The notes beneath the pieces are model-generated. The model saw only the letters and a program-made list of their open reading frames with translations, did no database searches and was not told the origin of the DNA. Source: Sinomonas humi (GTDB lineage Bacteria > Actinomycetota > Actinomycetes > Actinomycetales > Micrococcaceae). From it: a stretch of DNA of 64,000 bases. Shown here piece by piece: positions 17,882 to 55,579 of the stretch; position 1 is the first letter of the stretch, and the number at the start of each line of letters is the position of its first letter. The DNA lies in NCBI RefSeq assembly GCF_000802235.1, contig NZ_JTDL01000138.1, forward strand, positions 1 to 64,000, in the 5' to 3' direction. A program made the position numbers and the translations under genes.

Positions 17882-19066
17882 TCAGCCGGCCCAGTACTTT
17901 TCGATCCGAGCCACGGCTCGGGCCATAGCGTCGGCCGCCGCGGGCGGGAGCTCCTCGAACAGCTCCGGCCGGACGCGGGGAGCGGCCGGGGTGCCCTCCT
18001 TGAGCCACGTTCCGACCGCTCGGCCGCCGAACGAAAGCATGGCCTTGAAGACACCGTTCACGCCCGGGATCAGCCGCTCGAGATACGGCGCCGGAATGGC
18101 CACGGATCGGTCCGGGTAACCGAGGGCAAGCTCGTCGTAGCCCGGCAGCGCGACAGCCGTGCGCGCACCCGCCCGCGAGTCGAGCAGCGACGCGACCTCG
18201 GGCGTGCAGAACAGCACCCGGCCCTCATTTTCGACCGCGACCACCTTCGCGGCGGCCGCGCGAAAAGGTCCTCTCACGCTTCCGAGCGGCTGGCCGATCC
18301 ACCAGGCGAAGTCACGCTCGTCAACGGGTCCGTGTGAGGCCACATACCGGCCCGCGAGATATTCGAGGGCATCGTCCCCCGCGAGCCCCTCGCCCGGCGG
18401 CAACCACTCCTCGGCGAGCCTGAACTCCTGCTGCCGCCCTCGAAGCGGCCCCTGCACCAGAACCAACCTGTGGCTCAGGATCGACAGCAGATGGATCCCC
18501 CGCTGGCCGCCTGTGGGCTGGCCCGCCGCCTGAAACGCGTCGAACAGCTCCGCCCGAGTTAAGCCGTTTCCCCCACCAAGCCGTTCCTCGGCGACCTTCC
18601 GCACGACCGCCACGTCTTCCTCCGCGATCCCGAGCCCCCGGTGCCGAGAAGCGGCCGACCGCATGACGCGCGCCGAGGCGAGTTTCACATACGTGCGGAC
18701 ATCCTCGGCGAGGACGAGGAACAGCGTCCCCCGCATGGTCCAGGTGCGGACGACGGCGCCACTCGCCAAAGCTGCCGCGACGCCGCTCGCTGTGGCCCCG
18801 TCCGCCCGCACGCCGACGGCGAGCATTCCGGCCGGGAGGTCCTGACTCTGAAGCGCCGTCATCCGTCGCACTGCCGAGACGGGATCCGGCGACATCCGCA
18901 ACGGCGGGGGAAGCGAGTCACCGGGCACGAGTCCCTGGGCGACAAGGCGGAGGCGAGCCAGCGCCGTCGTGCTTATCGGCGAACCTGTGCTTATCGGCGA
19001 ACCTGTGCTTATCGGCGAACCTGTGCTTATCGGCGAACCTGTGGGCGAAACGGAATCCGTCGGCAT
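17882..19066 (-). CDS. Winged-helix protein of the AlkZ/YcaQ DNA glycosylase family
   Basis: This 394-residue protein belongs to the HTH_42 (winged-helix DNA-binding) family that includes AlkZ/YcaQ glycosylases, which unhook crosslinks and remove alkylated bases. The QxQ element thought to be catalytic in that family is present near residue 72 as MTALQSQD. Downstream conserved phrases are WTMRGTLFLV and PGYDELALGYPDRS. The first 25 residues are a low-complexity repeat (STGSPI four times) encoded by an 18-bp minisatellite and are probably dispensable. It ends 33 bp from the asd stop, convergent. DNA-repair function is inferred from family and motif. Confidence 0.8.
   Translation of the reverse strand: MPTDSVSPTGSPISTGSPISTGSPISTGSPISTTALARLRLVAQGLVPGDSLPPPLRMSPDPVSAVRRMTALQSQDLPAGMLAVGVRADGATASGVAAALASGAVVRTWTMRGTLFLVLAEDVRTYVKLASARVMRSAASRHRGLGIAEEDVAVVRKVAEERLGGGNGLTRAELFDAFQAAGQPTGGQRGIHLLSILSHRLVLVQGPLRGRQQEFRLAEEWLPPGEGLAGDDALEYLAGRYVASHGPVDERDFAWWIGQPLGSVRGPFRAAAAKVVAVENEGRVLFCTPEVASLLDSRAGARTAVALPGYDELALGYPDRSVAIPAPYLERLIPGVNGVFKAMLSFGGRAVGTWLKEGTPAAPRVRPELFEELPPAAADAMARAVARIEKYWAG
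18969..19040 (-). repeat. 18-bp tandem repeat x4 in 5' coding end
   Basis: Four identical copies of the 18-bp unit GTGCTTATCGGCGAACCT (plus strand) lie head to tail, followed by a partial copy. They encode STGSPI on the minus strand at the N-terminus of the AlkZ-like protein. Perfect identity suggests recent expansion. The unit keeps the frame, so copy-number change would only lengthen the tail. Confidence 0.95.
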
Positions 19067-21086: not shown

Positions 21087-21308
21087 CTATCCTCGGAGGC
21101 GACGGCGCATCTCGCGCGCCCGGATGCCGATGCCAAAAAGGTGCGCGACGATGCCGACGGCGATGATCGCCAGTGACACGAAGAGGAGCCAGACGACGTT
21201 GGCGAGGTTCGCGACAATATTGCAGATGATTCCCACGCCCAGGAAGGCCATGCCCGAGAGCACGACCTTCCTGTAGAGCGGAGGGGCCGTCTCCCAGAAG
21301 TCGTTCAC
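21087..21308 (-). CDS. Small two-helix membrane protein (73 aa)
   Basis: This 73-residue protein has a short amphipathic start (MNDFWETAPPLYRKVVLSG), two hydrophobic helices at about residues 17-37 and 39-60, and a basic tail AREMRRRLRG. It is therefore probably an inner-membrane hairpin with a cytoplasmic C-terminus. It sits tightly between the CitE-like lyase gene (12-bp gap) and the hadA-like gene (9-bp gap) on the same strand. No family recognised; the coding call rests on tight spacing, composition and lack of overlap. Confidence 0.68.
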   Translation of the reverse strand: MNDFWETAPPLYRKVVLSGMAFLGVGIICNIVANLANVVWLLFVSLAIIAVGIVAHLFGIGIRAREMRRRLRG

Positions 21309-21320
21309 GCGTTCCCTCGT

Positions 21321-22229
21321 TCAGGCCGGCTGAACGCCGAAGGCAGTTGCGAGCTTCATGATCTTCTCGGCGCGACCGAGGCGCGGGAGATCGGAGCCGT
21401 CGCGGATGACGCGGCCGTTCGCCTCGAAGTCCCGCATGAAGTCGGAAGCCCACGCGACGTCGCTCGGCGTCGGGCTGATGACCTCGTTGATCACCGTAGT
21501 CTGATCGATCGCGAGGCACAGCTTGCCCGTCATGCCCATCATGACGGTAATGGCGCTCTGCTCCCGCAGGATCGGGTGGTTGGTGCCCACAGTCGGCCCG
21601 TCGATGGGTCCAGGAAGGCCGCCCACGCGGCTCGCGACGACGAGTTTCGCTCGCGGGTACGCCATGGCTTCCGGGGTGGCCGCCATGCCCGTATCGCGGC
21701 GGAAATCGCCCGAACCGAATGCGAGGCGGAACGCTCCTTGAGCCTTGGCGATGTGATTCGCCTCCTCGATCCCCACGGCCGACTCGACCAACGGGATCAC
21801 GGGAGTCTTGCCGTCCATGCGGTGGTAGCTCTCCGTGACCTGATCCGAGGACTCGGTCTTGGCGAGCATGACGCCGAGCAGTCCAGTCGTTCCGCGCAGG
21901 CCCGCGAGGTCATCGGCCCAGAAGGGACTCGTCGCATCGTTGATGCGGACCCAAGCCTGGCCGCCGTCGCGCATCCAGCGGATCACGTTCTCGCGGGCCT
22001 CGCCCTTGTGCGAGGGATCGACGGCGTCCTCGATGTCAAGGATGACCGCATCCGCCCGCGAGGACGAGGCCTCGGAGAAGATCTCCGGCCGCATCGCGTT
22101 GACCAGCAGCCATGAGCGAGCAATCTCGGGATTCACGCTGCGGGCTGGGCGGGAGGAATCGGCGCCGGTGGGGCGGGAGAGATCAGCCCCGGTGGGGCGC
22201 GGCGATTCGGCGGCGGTCGTTGAGGTCAT
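21321..22229 (-). CDS. HpcH/HpaI-family CoA-ester lyase (CitE-like)
   Basis: This 302-residue protein is of the citrate-lyase beta-subunit-like family, which cleaves or forms CoA thioesters such as malyl- or citramalyl-CoA by Mg2+-dependent aldol chemistry. Family marks are NAMRPEIFSEASSSRADAV, the metal-site DIEDAVDPSHKGEARENV and, near residue 160, PLVESAVGIEEANHIAKA. The first 32 residues are a low-complexity tail with SRPTGAD repeated. TACCGT (22236-22241) lies 6 nt before ATG 22229, suggesting a leaderless mRNA. The substrate is unknown; a stand-alone CitE-like enzyme does not imply citrate fermentation. Confidence 0.87.
   Translation of the reverse strand: MTSTTAAESPRPTGADLSRPTGADSSRPARSVNPEIARSWLLVNAMRPEIFSEASSSRADAVILDIEDAVDPSHKGEARENVIRWMRDGGQAWVRINDATSPFWADDLAGLRGTTGLLGVMLAKTESSDQVTESYHRMDGKTPVIPLVESAVGIEEANHIAKAQGAFRLAFGSGDFRRDTGMAATPEAMAYPRAKLVVASRVGGLPGPIDGPTVGTNHPILREQSAITVMMGMTGKLCLAIDQTTVINEVISPTPSDVAWASDFMRDFEANGRVIRDGSDLPRLGRAEKIMKLATAFGVQPA
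22151..22198 (-). repeat. 24-bp tandem duplication in 5' coding end
   Basis: Two adjacent 24-bp units (22151-22174 and 22175-22198) differ at a few positions and encode the SRPTGAD repeats at the N-terminus of the CitE-like lyase. They keep the reading frame. This resembles the other minisatellites at protein termini in the window. Confidence 0.85.
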
Positions 22230-22339
22230 GGGTCAACGGTATCCCCCGCGCGCGCCCGTGGCACATCGAGCAGCCTCCGGGGGCACGCGGCGCGGGTTTC
22301 GTGCCGCCCGCGCCTGCCCCCGTCCTTATGCTGATCACC

Positions 22340-22522
22340 CTAAATGCTGAGCGCATACCTCGAATTCCACCCGCCGCAGGCCTCCCACCAAGTGATTCCC
22401 GATCGCATGCCCGGGGCATGCACTGTGGACAGCGTCCGCAGCGAGGGACCGCCTTTTTCAGGGCCGGAGGTTGCATCTTCCGCGACGGTAGATTCGGCAA
22501 TCTGGGGCTCGACATCAGCCAT
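22340..22522 (-). CDS. Orphan 60-residue peptide with Trp/Cys-rich C-terminus
   Basis: A short frame starts at ATG 22522 behind a good ribosome site (AGGAG, 7 nt spacing) and ends at 22340. The N-terminal 30 residues are acidic and polar (MADVEPQIAESTVAEDATSG). The C-terminal third is unusual: SGITWWEACGGWNSRYALSI, with three Trp, one Cys and aromatic or glycine residues. A leader-plus-core shape recalls ribosomally made modified peptides, but no maturase or exporter gene is adjacent. A TTGACA box lies at about 22610 on the same strand, in a locally AT-rich patch. I cannot assign a family; it may be a small protein of ordinary function or not a gene. Confidence 0.45.
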   Translation of the reverse strand: MADVEPQIAESTVAEDATSGPEKGGPSLRTLSTVHAPGMRSGITWWEACGGWNSRYALSI

Positions 22523-22674
22523 GGCTGTTCTCCTGATACTTCTCGGGATGGTCGAAGAATCGCTCCCCAGCGCTACGATCCAGTACCAGTGGACTACGGC
22601 CAAATTATTATGTCAAGCGATTTGATAAATTGCTCAGACCTCTGCCCTGAATGGACTCGGCCTAGAGAAAATCC

Positions 22675-23109
22675 CTAGGCCAGGAACACCTGACGGCCGG
22701 TCAACTGCCGAGGAACGAGCCTCACAAAGCGGTCACGAATGCCCCCAGCCCATGGCTCCTCGACGGCCAGTCCGAACAGCTCGGTGAGGAGGCCAGAATC
22801 CTCGACGGCGCTCGCAGTGCCCGAGACGAGCACTGACCAGCCGGCCTGCGCATCGGGTCGTGCGGAGTCGATTTCGAAGGCTGCGCCTTCTTGTGGGAGG
22901 GCGGCAGCGATCACTCCTTCGGCGGAGGTGCGGAAGTAGACGCTGCCCCTGTGGACTGCGTAATGCACAGGGAAGACCTGGATACGCCCTCCATGGGTGA
23001 ATGCGAATCTTCCAATGCCAGACGATCCGAGCAGCGCCCAGCACTTCTCCTCGTCGAGCTCGAAGTCCTCGTGCCGGACACCGGGTCCGTAGTCCCCAAC
23101 CGTGGGCAT
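22675..23109 (-). CDS. Pyridoxamine 5'-phosphate oxidase-fold protein (F420/FMN-type split barrel)
   Basis: This 144-residue protein has the split-barrel fold of the PPOX-like family, which binds FMN, F420 or heme. Family features are the opening helix FELDEEKCWALLGSSGIGRF, the strand RIQVFPVHYAVHRGSVYFR and the ending RFVRLVPRQLTGRQVF. Many actinobacterial members of this size are uncharacterised redox enzymes. The start at ATG 23109 follows GAGGAGG with good spacing. A longer frame exists upstream but runs through a perfect hairpin and is rejected. The cofactor cannot be fixed from sequence. Confidence 0.84.
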   Translation of the reverse strand: MPTVGDYGPGVRHEDFELDEEKCWALLGSSGIGRFAFTHGGRIQVFPVHYAVHRGSVYFRTSAEGVIAAALPQEGAAFEIDSARPDAQAGWSVLVSGTASAVEDSGLLTELFGLAVEEPWAGGIRDRFVRLVPRQLTGRQVFLA

Positions 23110-23149
23110 GGCCGCCTCCTCGCGCGTCACGCCCCAGCCTGCCATGAGT

Positions 23150-23194
23150 GAGGCGACGAGTGGAAGGACCTTAGTCCCTTCCACTCGTCGCCTC
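23150..23194. terminator. Perfect 18-bp inverted repeat between GH13 and PPOX genes
   Basis: An 18-bp perfect stem (arms 23150-23167 and 23177-23194, starting GAGGCGACGAGT) with a 9-nt loop lies 49 bp after the alpha-glucosidase stop and 40 bp before the PPOX start, both on the minus strand. No T tract follows. It is most simply the alpha-glucosidase terminator, as high-GC actinobacterial terminators often lack U runs, but its position also allows an operator or attenuator for the PPOX gene. Confidence 0.65.
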
Positions 23195-23242
23195 AAAGAA
23201 CACGACCGGCAGACCCGCGGGCAGCCGGCGGAGTCGCAGCTG

Positions 23243-28620: not shown

Positions 28621-30645
28621 TCAGCCTCGGCTGCCGCCGAAGCGGCGGGCCCCGCCCGACGCCCCGCTGCGGCCGCTGAAGCCACCTCGGCCGCTGAAGC
28701 CCTCACGGCCTCCACGGTCGCGGCGGTCGCGGCGGTCGCCCCAGTCGTCCCGGCGATCGCGGCTGAAGCCGCCATGGCCGCCGCGCGAGCCCCAGTCACC
28801 GTCACGGGGACCGCGGTCACGGTCGCGACCGCCGCGGCTTCCTCGTGAGCCCCAGTCGTCGCCGTCACGCGCCGGGCGGCGGCCCGAGTCAAGCTCGAGC
28901 TTGATGAGCTCACCGCCGATACGGGTCTTCGAGAGCGCCCTCCACTGCTCGCTCGAGAGCTCGGAAGGAAGTTCGACGAGGGAGAAGTCGGAGCGGATGT
29001 CGATCCCACCGATCTGGCTCGAGTGGAAACCGCCCTCGTTCGCGAGTGCACCGACGATTGAGCCGGGCTGCACCCGCTGACGGCGACCCACTGCGATGCG
29101 GTACGTCGCGCTTCCCTCAGACGAGCCGCGCGGCGCGCGCCCTTGGCCGCGACCGCCGTCGCGCCCGTCGCGATCCCGCCCGCGCTTGGCGAACTCCGGA
29201 GCGCTCGGCAGTTCCTCGACGAAGAACGGGGCGTCGCCCTGGACCATCACCGCGAGCGCTGCCGCGATCTCGGCCGCGGGCACATTGTGCTCGGTCTCGT
29301 AGGAAGCGATGAGGTCGCGGAACAGCGAGACGTCCTCGGACTCGAGCGTCTCCGTGATCTGGTCGGCGAACTTGCTCATGCGCAGCGAGTTGACGGTCTC
29401 CGCCGTCGGCAGCGACATCTGCTCGACGGCCTGGTGCGTAGCCTTCTCGATCGCGCGAAGGAGGTACTTCTCGCGCGGGGTCATGAACAGGATCGCATCG
29501 CCCTTGCGGCCGGCGCGGCCCGTCCGGCCGATTCGGTGCACGTAGCTCTCGGTGTCATGCGGGATGTCGTAGTTCACGACGTGGCTGATGCGCTCCACGT
29601 CGAGGCCACGCGCCGCGACGTCCGTCGCGACGAGGATGTCGATCTTGCCCTCACGCAGCGCCTCGACGGTGCGCTCGCGCTGCGCCTGGGCGATGTCGCC
29701 GTTGATCGCGGCGGCCTGGAAGCCACGCGCCTTGAGCTTGTCCGCAAGATCCTCGGTGGCCATCTTCGTCCGGACGAACGCGATGACGCCGTCGAACTCC
29801 TCGACCTCGAGGATGCGGGTGAGCGCATCCAGCTTGTGCGAGCCCACGACCTGCACGTACCGCTGGCGGATGTTCTGCCCGGTCGTGGTCTTGGACTTGA
29901 CCGTGACCTCTTCCGGGTTGTTGAGGTACTGCTTCGACATCCGGCGGATCTGCGACGGCATGGTCGCGGAGAACAGGGCAACCTGGCGACCGTCCGGGGT
30001 CTCCTGGAAGATGCGCTCGACGTCGTCCGCGAAGCCCATGCGGAGCATTTCGTCGGCCTCGTCGAGCACGAGGTACTGGAGCTCGGAGAGATCCAGCGAG
30101 CCCTTCTCGAGGTGGTCGATCACGCGGCCAGGCGTGCCGACGACGACCTGCGCGCCCCGGCGGAGACCAGCAAGCTGCGGACCGTATGCGGAGCCGCCGT
30201 AGACCGGGAGGACAGTGAAGTCCTCGAGGTGCTTCGCGTAGGACGTGAATGCCTCCGCAACCTGGAGCGCGAGCTCGCGGGTCGGTGCGAGGACGAGCGC
30301 CTGGGTCGAACGGGAGGGCCCGTTCTGGTCGTGGAGTTCCGCGAGGCGCGAGAGCGCCGGAACGGCGAACGCCGCAGTCTTGCCCGTTCCCGTCTGGGCG
30401 AGGCCGACGACGTCGCGCCCCTCAAGCAGGAGCGGAATGGTTGCCGCCTGGATGGGCGAGGGCTTCTCGTAGCCGACCTCGGTCAGCGCTGCGAGAATGC
30501 GGGCGTCGATGCCGAGGTCGGTGAAGAGCACACCGCGCTCCTCCTCGCTCTGCTGCTCGGCGGGGGCAGTAGTCTCGGTCTCGGGGGCAGTGGTCTCGGA
30601 AGCCTCTTCATTGGTGGCGAAGGGGGCATCGAGGGTTTCAGACAT
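28621..30645 (-). CDS. deaD: DEAD-box RNA helicase (DeaD/CsdA type)
   Basis: This 674-residue ATP-dependent RNA helicase has roles in ribosome assembly and mRNA decay, often cold-induced. After a 45-residue acidic N-terminus come the Q motif (SPIQAATIP), motif I AQTGTGKT (near 88), PTRELALQ, DEAD (near 197), SAT, and HRIGRTGRAGR (near 373). A DbpA-type RNA-binding domain follows (about 540-610; RIAVGRRQRVQPGSIVGAL), then an Arg/Gly/Asp-rich tail with RGG-like repeats. ATG 30645 has GGAGG 8 nt upstream. The frame continues to a GTG at 30825, but that extension has no domain and is not preferred. The leader of about 240 nt suggests post-transcriptional control. Confidence 0.95.
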   Translation of the reverse strand: MSETLDAPFATNEEASETTAPETETTAPAEQQSEEERGVLFTDLGIDARILAALTEVGYEKPSPIQAATIPLLLEGRDVVGLAQTGTGKTAAFAVPALSRLAELHDQNGPSRSTQALVLAPTRELALQVAEAFTSYAKHLEDFTVLPVYGGSAYGPQLAGLRRGAQVVVGTPGRVIDHLEKGSLDLSELQYLVLDEADEMLRMGFADDVERIFQETPDGRQVALFSATMPSQIRRMSKQYLNNPEEVTVKSKTTTGQNIRQRYVQVVGSHKLDALTRILEVEEFDGVIAFVRTKMATEDLADKLKARGFQAAAINGDIAQAQRERTVEALREGKIDILVATDVAARGLDVERISHVVNYDIPHDTESYVHRIGRTGRAGRKGDAILFMTPREKYLLRAIEKATHQAVEQMSLPTAETVNSLRMSKFADQITETLESEDVSLFRDLIASYETEHNVPAAEIAAALAVMVQGDAPFFVEELPSAPEFAKRGRDRDGRDGGRGQGRAPRGSSEGSATYRIAVGRRQRVQPGSIVGALANEGGFHSSQIGGIDIRSDFSLVELPSELSSEQWRALSKTRIGGELIKLELDSGRRPARDGDDWGSRGSRGGRDRDRGPRDGDWGSRGGHGGFSRDRRDDWGDRRDRRDRGGREGFSGRGGFSGRSGASGGARRFGGSRG

Positions 30646-30893
30646 AGAGGTGTCCTCCGGTTTGGGGAGCCTGAATGTTGGCTCGTCGGTCAATACCGAA
30701 GCCCGGCGCTGTCTCAATCCCATGGCAGGACTTCTCGCTGCACTCGGCGCCACACGCGCACCAACAGCGTTTTCTTCAGCCGGCTCCCCTATGAAACTGC
30801 CCGCCTCGCGGGCCCCAACACGCACTACTCCTGCCTCAAGAATTGGGCAGGAAGAGGGAATACCGGCGCAGTGGGGGATACATCTATCTTACA
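30646..30893 (-). promoter_or_regulatory. Long untranslated leader and putative promoter of deaD
   Basis: On the minus strand an extended -10, TGTAAGAT (about 30893-30886), is the first promoter-like element upstream of deaD. It would give a leader of about 235 nt. The leader holds a short hairpin GCCCGC-GAGG-CGGGC (about 30800). Long structured leaders are usual for cold-induced helicase mRNAs; the promoter assignment is tentative. The stretch 30894-31024 shows nothing recognisable. Confidence 0.4.
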
Positions 30894-31024: not shown

Positions 31025-31540
31025 ACCGGCCGATGGGGGCACGAGCGTCCCTCGGCCGGTCAGGCCCCTCGGCCGGTCGTGTCCCTCCGCCGCACCACCG
31101 CCCCTCGGCCGGTCGTGTCCCTCGGCCGCACCACCGCCCCTCAGCCGCACCACCCTTCTTCAGCCGCACGACCGTCCCTCGGAGGCACGAACGTCCCGCA
31201 CGCGCGACGGTTATGCCGTTCCCAGCCGTACGACCGTTCCTCGGAAGCACGCGCGTCCCCTGGCCCCACGACCGTCCCTCGTCCTCACGACCGTCCCTCG
31301 GAGGCACGAGCGTCCCGCACACGCGGCGGTTATGCCGTTCCGCGACGGTTATGCCGTTCGGCGACGGTTATGCCGTTCGGCGACGGTTATGCCGTTCCGC
31401 GACGGTTAAGCCGCCCCCAGCCGCACGACCGTCCCTCGGAGGCACGAGCGTCCCGCACGCGCGGCGGTTATGCCGTTCCGCGACGTTTATGCCGTTCGGC
31501 GACGGCTATGCCGCTGTGGGACGGTTATGGTTCGGGGTGT
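31025..31540. repeat. Iteron-like intergenic array (ACGNNCGT dyads, ~19-20 bp period)
   Basis: About 515 bp of non-coding repeats fill the space between the helicase leader and the MOSC gene. A 54-bp unit recurs at 31169-31222, 31288-31341 and 31426-31479. Within it, and between copies, the core RCACGANCGTYCC appears about ten times with a variable middle (AC, AA, AG, CG), often 19-20 bp apart. Between these, the 19-bp unit GGTTATGCCGTTCCGCGAC is tandem four times at 31328-31403 and about three times at 31466-31522, with ACGG...CCGT symmetry. The first 140 bp use a related CCTCGGCCGGTCGTG unit. Open frames across it are repeat artefacts. Function unknown. Confidence 0.85.
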
Positions 31541-32191
31541 CTAGGCCTCGAGGCCGAGTACGCGGTCGATATAGGGCCGGATCTCAGCCGCGAGACGGAT
31601 GGTGCCCTCGGCCTCGGCGTCGAGGAGTGCCTCTGCCCGCTCGCGGGTGGGGTCAGCGAGCCACTCCCCCACACGGACGCCATGGTCAGGGACGTGTTCG
31701 ACGCCGAACTGTTCGCCCGCCTCGACGTCGCCGGGAGTGATCACCCGGAGATACGCGCCGGACAGACCCGAAGCTTTGAACCGCTTGACCCAGCCGTCCT
31801 CGCCGACCCGCCGTGCGAACGTCGCACACGGGACCCTGGGCATCGTGACTTCAAGGACGGTGCCGCCCGGGAAGCGCCAGCGTTCCCCGATGACGGCGTT
31901 GCTCGCGGTGAGGCCAGCCACCCGGAAGTTCTCCCCGAAGTAGCCCGGCGGAACCTCGCGGCCGAGGACTCCGGCCCACAGCCCGGCGTCGTCCTCTGAG
32001 TACGCGTAAACGGCCTTGTTCTCACCGCCGTGGTTCGCACGGTCAGCCTGGACGTCTCCATGGAGCCCTAGCCTGCGGATACGGACCGGCCCCACGACTG
32101 GCCGCTTGTCGATCGCGGTCACGCCCACGGGGCCCGAATCGGGCAGGAGCTGCTGGACGCGACAGACGGCTACGAGGCGTGCGGACTTCAT
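31541..32191 (-). CDS. MOSC-domain protein (YiiM-like)
   Basis: This 216-residue protein has the MOSC beta-barrel found at the C-terminus of Moco sulfurases and in YiiM, which binds molybdenum cofactor and reduces N-hydroxylated compounds. The family phrases RRLGLHGDVQADRANHGGEN, KAVYAYSEDD and the conserved cysteine in VPCATFARRV are present. The start at ATG 32191 has TATTCT (32199-32204) 7 nt upstream, a leaderless arrangement. Its stop touches the repeat array at 31540. Electron partners are not adjacent. Enzymatic role inferred from family. Confidence 0.88.
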   Translation of the reverse strand: MKSARLVAVCRVQQLLPDSGPVGVTAIDKRPVVGPVRIRRLGLHGDVQADRANHGGENKAVYAYSEDDAGLWAGVLGREVPPGYFGENFRVAGLTASNAVIGERWRFPGGTVLEVTMPRVPCATFARRVGEDGWVKRFKASGLSGAYLRVITPGDVEAGEQFGVEHVPDHGVRVGEWLADPTRERAEALLDAEAEGTIRLAAEIRPYIDRVLGLEA

Positions 32192-54637: not shown

Positions 54638-55579
54638 CTACTTGTACCAGACCGCGACGCCTCCGTGATGCGAGCACGTCCCGCTGTGGGTCGCGGAGTA
54701 CGAGAGGGTTCCGTCGTTGCACTTGGCGGTTGCGCCGGCTGGCGCAGGCGCCACCGGAGCAGGCGCAGGCGCCACCGGAGCAGGCGCAGGCGCCACCGGA
54801 GCAGGCGCAGGCGCCACCGGAGCAGGCGCAGGCGCCGCTGGCGCGGGAGCAGCGGGGGCCGGCGCCGGAGCCGCCGCGGCGACATAGGTCTCGTACGCGT
54901 CCCACCAGTCGGTGGCGATGGCCTGTTGCGCGGTTGCCAGCGCGAGCTGGCCCGAGCAGACCAGCGTATGGAGCTTGTTCTCGAGATCGTCCTTGGCCTT
55001 GGACCCACCGGTCGAGGCAGTCGACGGTTCGGGCCAGAGGTTGTGCACGTCCGAGGGCGCGCCGCCCAACTCGAGCGGGATGAGGTGATCCTCCTCGTAG
55101 TCGGCCGGGTTGAGGTCGCCCTGGTAGGCGTACCCGGCCCGCAGCTGGTCGAGCTTGAGCTGGGAGGTGTACGAGGACGGCGGACGAACCGTCGTCGTCC
55201 ATCCCGAAACGCAGATGGTGCTCGCGATGTCGCCTTGCGACACTGAGGGGTTCGTCGCGCCGGGCGTCGCAGCCCGGTCGGGCAGGATCGCCCCGCTCGC
55301 CACAGCTTCCGTCCCGCCCAACGTGGCCCCAGCGTAGGCCGGGGCGGACGACGACGGCGCCTCCGCCGTCGTCGGCGTCGCCGAGGCGCTGATCACCGGT
55401 GTGGCGCTCGCGGACGGAGAGCTGCTCGGCGAGCTGGCTACGGAGGCCGCGCCCGACGACGGTGCGAACGACGACGCTCCCCCGGCTGTCGAAGCCTGCG
55501 TTCCCCCGCACCCTGCCAAGGCAACCGCGAGCGCGGCCGACGTGAAACCCAGCAAGTACGAAGCTCCCCTGACCCGCAC
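54638..55579 (-). CDS. Secreted HNH-nuclease-like lipoprotein with Pro/Ala repeats and DUF3761 end
   Basis: This is a 313-residue predicted lipoprotein. It has an N-terminal signal and lipobox LAVALAGC (Cys near 23), then a Ser/Ala/Thr-rich linker to about 105. A DUF1524-type HNH domain (about 120-220) carries EEDHLIPLELGGAPSDVHNL followed by WPEP. A Pro-Ala-Val repeat (about 240-282) leads to a cysteine-bearing tail CNDGTLSYSATHSGTCSHHG like DUF3761. It is presumably an extracellular nuclease on the cell surface. GTG 55579 is favoured by the GGGGGGAATA site; ATG 55612 is possible. The linker repeats are a 21-bp minisatellite. Confidence 0.85.
   Translation of the reverse strand: MRVRGASYLLGFTSAALAVALAGCGGTQASTAGGASSFAPSSGAASVASSPSSSPSASATPVISASATPTTAEAPSSSAPAYAGATLGGTEAVASGAILPDRAATPGATNPSVSQGDIASTICVSGWTTTVRPPSSYTSQLKLDQLRAGYAYQGDLNPADYEEDHLIPLELGGAPSDVHNLWPEPSTASTGGSKAKDDLENKLHTLVCSGQLALATAQQAIATDWWDAYETYVAAAAPAPAPAAPAPAAPAPAPVAPAPAPVAPAPAPVAPAPAPVAPAPAGATAKCNDGTLSYSATHSGTCSHHGGVAVWYK
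54741..54824 (-). repeat. 21-bp tandem repeat x4 in the HNH lipoprotein gene
   Basis: Four identical 21-bp units (start 54741, 54762, 54783, 54804; unit GGCGCAGGCGCCACCGGAGC plus A) and a partial fifth encode APAPVAP-type repeats between the nuclease domain and the tail. They are in frame; identity suggests recent expansion. Confidence 0.95.

Follow-up and report, generated by a model that had tools for sequence, protein, structure and literature searches.

Sequence comparison across Sinomonas shows that a 60-codon frame on the minus strand of a 64,000-nucleotide stretch of the S. humi genome (hereafter the window) is a real protein-coding gene. At roughly even confidence, we read its product as a Sinomonas-restricted, disordered cytosolic regulator or adaptor of 55-65 aa, which would dock an aromatic and cysteine-containing tail onto a conserved partner. 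The features discussed below are listed in Table 1.

Table 1. Features at and around the small gene, in window coordinates
Feature	Position	Strand	Observation
Small protein gene, 60 codons and stop	22340..22522	-	open and aligned in 15/15 same-genus genomes
N-terminal part, residues 1-41: acidic MAD/MAE start and variable linker	22400..22522	-	alignment; pN/pS 0.86; pLDDT about 50
Conserved C-terminal tail, residues 42-60, GITWWEACGGWNSRYALSI	22343..22399	-	alignment; pN/pS 0.28
WWEACGGW within the tail	22390-22367	-	
Shine-Dalgarno (SD) site TCAGGAG	22530..22536	-	TCAGG invariant in 15/15
Conserved 5'-leader element GCTGGGGAGCGATTCTTCGAC	22551..22571	-	near-invariant primary sequence, 15/15
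Putative -10 hexamer TCCACT (T[CG]NACT, non-canonical)	22588..22593	-	spacer pattern in the genus
-35-like TTGACA	22611..22616	-	invariant in 15/15
AT-rich stretch TTTATCAAATCGC abutting TTGACA (putative UP element or operator)	22617..22629	-	
HpcH/HpaI aldolase (CitE-like), downstream neighbour, putatively with a separate promoter	21321..22229	-	
Putative -10 of leaderless type, TACCGT, for the CitE-like gene; ATG follows after 6 nt	22236..22241	-	
Pyridox_ox_2 (PF12900) family protein, upstream neighbour, start approximate	22675..23196	-	

Conservation of the frame and its tail in Sinomonas

The frame runs from an ATG at 22522-22520 to a stop at 22342-22340, and its 60-aa product is MADVEPQIAESTVAEDATSGPEKGGPSLRTLSTVHAPGMRSGITWWEACGGWNSRYALSI. 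A sequence-only reading of the window had already given the coordinates of this frame, to which the minus strand is now assigned. The plus strand over the same interval reads as another open frame, distinct from the small gene. Since GC-rich DNA holds many spurious open frames (82 ORFs of at least 40 aa over the surrounding 9-kb stretch), the small gene had to be judged by conservation.

The genus sample comprised the window genome and 14 other Sinomonas genomes. The frame was found in all 15 and is interrupted by internal stops in none; with each locus re-read in frame, the proteins measure 55-65 aa and their starts adjoin a TCAGG(A/G)G site. Loss of conservation or frameshifts in close relatives, which the sequence-only reading had taken to rule out a gene, were not observed. 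A longer start (TTG at 22603, 87 aa) was dropped: the ATG or GTG next to the SD site is conserved, and indels in the upstream alignment are not multiples of three. The gene may already carry a hypothetical protein label in the NCBI annotation of Sinomonas genomes.

The alignment of the 15 proteins spans 69 columns. Nine residues are invariant (M1, I43, W45, W46, E47, C49, G50, G51 and W52) and four nearly so (A2, G42, A48 and Y56), and the last 19-20 residues hold the consensus GI.WWE(A/T)CGGW..RY. Pooled pairwise pN/pS over the codon alignment of the 15 genes was about 0.28 in the tail versus about 0.86 in the N-terminal part and linker, with tail values of 0.12 and 0.28 in the two subclades; these values are descriptive, as the pairs compared depend on one another and synonymous sites differ strongly (pS 0.46-0.62). 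The contrast still shows that it is the peptide sequence of the tail, and not its DNA, that is retained. The codon alignment thereby shows purifying selection on the tail at the protein level, and shows the first two thirds of the protein to be free to vary. The first 12 residues carry a net charge of -3 in the window genome and of -2 to -4 across all 15 genomes. Several elements of the sequence-only reading are borne out here: the acidic, leader-like start, the C-terminus with WW, a single Cys, GGW and a terminal YALSI, and the two-part layout. The conserved core with variable leader that it had proposed to look for takes the form, across the 15 genomes, of a conserved tail behind a variable N-terminal part.

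A motif scan of an 84,980-species collection returned 15 stretches, 11 in Sinomonas records and 4 elsewhere. Among the Sinomonas stretches, nine give proteins already present in the genus sample and a tenth matches, by eye, the protein of one sampled locus (L017). The S. cellulolyticus record supplies a sixteenth distinct Sinomonas sequence, with its frame intact. The 4 stretches outside Sinomonas lie in frames open from stop to stop over 22-88 codons; beyond the motif no likeness to the gene was seen, and they were judged to be chance matches.

AlphaFold2 was run on 12 of the sequences and gave a mean pLDDT of 53.7, with only one short helix (residues 45-49); on these low values the protein is predicted to have no fold of its own. 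The N-terminus is acidic and hydrophilic, and no hydrophobic or signal-like stretch was seen by eye in the 15-protein alignment. Our best reading is a mostly disordered, cytosolic protein.

Promoter, leader and RNA structure

As the sequence-only reading had noticed, the gene has a good ribosome site, AGGAG at 22534-22530, seven bases before the ATG, and a TTGACA box in an AT-rich patch, at 22616-22611. The box begins 94 bases upstream of the ATG. A sigma-70 consensus scan came back empty, since the second hexamer does not resemble TATAAT. A T(C/G)NACT hexamer is found at a 17-nt spacer in 12 of the 15 genomes and is shifted or altered in the other 3. Conservation is nearly base by base in all 15 genomes from TTTAT(A/C)AAATCGCTTGACATA through to the start codon: past the hexamer come GCTGGGGAG(CC)CGATTC(T/G)TCGAC and then TCAGGAG. 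The most divergent leader is that of S. mesophila. These alignments show the promoter and leader region to be conserved in primary sequence.

No other full-length copy of the leader was found in the 15 genus genomes. All 14 weak leader matches in the genus and all 10 in other genera were read by eye, and a full leader with the motif behind it was seen in none of them; filters were stricter in the family-wide search, which could have missed weak copies. One weak match, in a single Sinomonas genome, has only the promoter part in common with the small gene. At this place (L122, around 1501-1551, TTGACAAATTAATTCGTCGGTAGTCAACT) the promoter is much like that of the small gene, and a winged-helix/ArsR-like frame starts 6 bases past TTGACA-N17-TCAACT, which as one weak match supports the hexamer assignment. 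The two promoters may define a TTGACA-N17-T(C/G)NACT promoter type.

Concerning RNA structure, Rfam at the gathering score identified only three tRNAs in the window, all elsewhere than the small gene, and sub-threshold matches around the gene had E values of 0.86 or worse. Single folds of eight leaders gave z-scores from -1.11 to 1.14, and RNAalifold on the 15 leaders found neither a supported consensus structure nor covariation. In one subclade, of nine genomes, pairing of GAUUCUUCGAC with GUCAGGAGAGUC into an 11-bp helix could cover the SD site. All 99 cells are paired (9/9 sequences), and two pairs carry one-sided changes that preserve pairing, none of them compensatory. A shuffle control was uninformative since the 5' arm never varies, and in the subclade of the window genome itself the helix fails on inspection by eye. 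The z-scores, the missing consensus and the lack of compensatory change weaken the case, and we regard an SD-covering helix in the nine-genome subclade as weakly supported and no more than suggestive. A conserved structure common to all 15 leaders was dropped from consideration, as RNAalifold gave no consensus and the helix is confined to one subclade.

The almost base-for-base conservation of the leader in all 15 genomes, together with this possible SD-sequestering helix, raises the question of whether the leader is mainly what is conserved, as a regulatory RNA or operator with the small ORF as its passenger or sensor. We hold this to be improbable: the protein tail is itself under strong selection at the amino-acid level, neither an Rfam family nor covariation was found at the gene, and the genus offers no second full-length leader.

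Chromosomal place and range

In all 14 other Sinomonas loci the small gene lies between an amylase-family gene and the CitE-like gene, and the Pyridox_ox_2 gene is found upstream in 13 of them (it was not found in L050). Synteny thus shows one fixed chromosomal place for the gene in Sinomonas. The CitE-like gene is preceded by TAC[CG]GT-N6-ATG in all 15 Sinomonas loci and in 3 of the 4 loci of other genera looked at; TAC[CG]GT six bases before the ATG is the layout of leaderless actinobacterial genes. From the stop of the small gene it is 39 to 134 nt to CitE, depending on the genome, and the genus alignment has no conserved stretch between that stop and the CitE promoter region. CitE orthologues 75-87% identical were found at three loci of other genera (g9, g18 and g19); the search for a motif-bearing frame ahead of CitE was negative there, and no Pyridox_ox_2 homologue was found in the 15.8-kb stretches. 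At g19, the only one of these loci inspected in detail, an aldo-keto-reductase-like frame occupies by eye the place of the small gene.

Pfam assigned further neighbours in the window to an amino-acid permease (6 kb from the small gene), a semialdehyde dehydrogenase, AlkZ-like, MurB, an acyltransferase, a DEAD helicase, MOSC, a response regulator, a histidine kinase, ROK, MaoC and FAS1_DH-type proteins; two neighbour frames (73 aa and 164 aa) have no Pfam family. A hydrophobic 73-aa minus-strand frame without Pfam family lies at 21087-21308, between the CitE-like and FAS1_DH-type dehydratase genes, and another genus has a similar frame of 75 aa in the corresponding position (L091, 8817-9044).

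Several tandem repeats were also noticed in the window. A 24-bp repeat in 3 copies (22147-22217) is translated as SRPTGAD units at the start of the CitE-like protein. A perfect 18-bp repeat of 4.2 copies (18969-19043) gives (TGSPIS)n as the N-terminal part of the AlkZ-like protein on the minus strand (17882-19066), and a perfect 21-bp repeat of 4.6 copies is found at 54741-54836. At 31304-31529, units of about 19 bp (CGCGACGGTTATGCCGTTC and variants) form a tandem array that adjoins other GC-rich arrays starting at 31049 and apparently has the DEAD-helicase gene (28621-30825) on one side and the MOSC gene (31541-32191) on the other.

The range of the protein was examined by profile searches of a partial sample of 245 family, 297 order and 396 phylum genomes. 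With the full-length profile, 17 family genomes were matched (the 15 of the genus and 2 marginal), 8 order genomes (genus members and 6 marginal, E 0.002-0.01) and 8 phylum genomes (genus members and 7 marginal, E 0.002-0.01). The marginal loci outside the genus number 14, with 2 from the family search, 5 new in the order search and 7 from the phylum search; all were read and offer partial resemblance, the full motif being present in none. With a tail-only profile, 36 of 240 family genomes had matches at E up to 0.1: the 15 genes scored 5.4e-12 or better and 24 other matches 0.01 or worse. Each of these 24 was read and is partial only; the nearest, TWWAACGGW in L196, continues into an unrelated frame. 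By these searches the protein is present throughout Sinomonas, with no convincing copy in the other genera sampled. Searches of viral contigs, plasmids and phages all came back negative, and a mobile element or phage origin was dropped on this ground. Our literature searches, to which the statement is limited, found the motif in no text and no text on a Sinomonas "small protein".

What the small protein may do

A variable part followed by a conserved tail is also the look of cofactor-type RiPP precursors and of arrest peptides. The sequence-only reading had compared the frame to a RiPP precursor. Such a precursor would be matured by an enzyme encoded in trans, with the WWEACGGW..RY tail as the core of a fixed product; the product would be cofactor-like because the core is invariant, and core conservation is a feature of some cofactor RiPPs, mycofactocin among them. 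The peptide is short, its near-invariant C-terminal segment contains a Cys, three Trp and usually a Tyr, and its N-terminal part varies. Like the MftA/PqqA-type precursors, it pairs a conserved C-terminal with a less conserved N-terminal part, but it differs from them in having no maturase among the scanned neighbours, no radical-SAM protein in the window genome that best matches a peptide maturase, and no NCBIfam match of its own.

The scan for such enzymes took in 17 window neighbours, genes syntenic in the 14 other loci included, and ORFs of at least 90 aa. As the sequence-only reading had stated, no modifying enzyme is visible nearby: the 17 (two of them without a family, one an amino-acid permease) include no maturase, protease or peptide exporter by Pfam. 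The genome-wide search that it had also proposed, made for radical-SAM, PqqD-like and YcaO proteins, turned up the first two in the window genome and no YcaO. The eight radical-SAM matches best fit the MoaA, MiaB, HemW, TrsS/Tes-like (below cut-off), HpnH, LipA, RlmN and Rv2578c models, none of which is a peptide-maturase family. YcaO was found in 1 of the 15 genus genomes. A PqqD-like protein is encoded in 9 (8 over the cut-off), the window genome included, and is missing in 6; its presence speaks for the RiPP reading, but at 1/15 and 9/15 YcaO and PqqD-like proteins are both less universal than the small peptide (15/15). The N-terminal part also lacks a conserved recognition segment beyond MAx(D/E). 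The RiPP reading is thus not supported by the maturase tests and the distribution of these enzymes, and we judge a trans-matured precursor to be rather unlikely. A more specific form, in which WWEACGGW would be the invariant core of a new Sinomonas cofactor-like or signalling RiPP, cross-linked at Trp, Cys and Tyr by a maturase encoded elsewhere (e.g. a P450 or MNIO) and with its output gated by the possibly SD-covering leader, is given a low probability. As a separate observation, a 128-aa PqqD-like frame of the window genome (L170, 1474-1857, minus strand) adjoins a 407-aa frame without Pfam family; it could belong to some peptide pathway, possibly an unrelated one.

The small protein might instead be a nascent-chain arrest or attenuation leader peptide controlling the CitE-like gene. 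Its conserved C-terminal end, variable N-terminal part and one fixed downstream gene fit this, as does a tail conserved in amino acids while synonymous sites vary. CitE has its own promoter-like site in all 15 loci, however, and also in three genera where no motif-bearing frame was found ahead of it. This site and the variable stop-to-CitE distance, with no conserved stretch before the CitE promoter region, make a leader-peptide role unlikely. The search that defined the actinobacterial arrest peptides ApcA and ApdA specified 80-200 aa, an N-terminal topogenic signal and a position upstream of sec/yidC (PMC7897499). The small gene is likewise a small ORF with a conserved C-terminal end upstream of a fixed gene, but its product differs in its length of 55-65 aa, in lacking an N-terminal topogenic segment of the ApcA/ApdA kind and in having no RAP/RAPP motif in the tail, and the gene that follows has its own promoter-like site.

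Release of the short, Trp-rich tail as a secreted or membrane-active peptide, bacteriocin-like or a signal, appears very unlikely: no signal-like segment was seen by eye, no peptide exporter is present among the scanned neighbours, and the tail is near-invariant across species. Competing bacteriocins generally are not. A chance open frame, which the sequence-only reading had allowed for and which GC-rich DNA produces in number, is refuted by conservation in all 15 genomes, the one further Sinomonas record and the tail-specific purifying selection, and its probability is negligible.

Among the three options of the sequence-only reading, a small regulatory peptide fits best, with the regulatory role itself putative. 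The pattern of tail conservation, together with the predicted disorder, leads us to propose that the protein probably acts by docking its C-terminal tail onto a putative partner. The gene would be transcribed on its own from TTGACA..T(C/G)NACT and, in one subclade, a leader helix over the SD site may gate its translation. The disordered regulator or adaptor would then dock onto a single conserved partner in the cell by its tail, GI.WWEACGGW..RY, with the acidic and variable part possibly serving as tether or spacer. In being taxonomically restricted and predicted to be disordered, with one conserved motif and a promoter that is probably its own, the protein resembles lineage-restricted small proteins acting through short linear motifs. 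It fits no known family: no match was found in PDB or NCBIfam, and Pfam and PHROGs gave only weak, single-member matches (E 0.064 or above).

Retention at one place throughout the genus and a near-invariant tail point to a constant job, and probably to a constant partner. What was an orphan 60-aa frame is now a defined small-protein family with a sharp motif and a conserved, putatively regulatory leader. The case also shows that genuine small genes can be told by genus-level conservation from the spurious frames in which GC-rich genomes abound.
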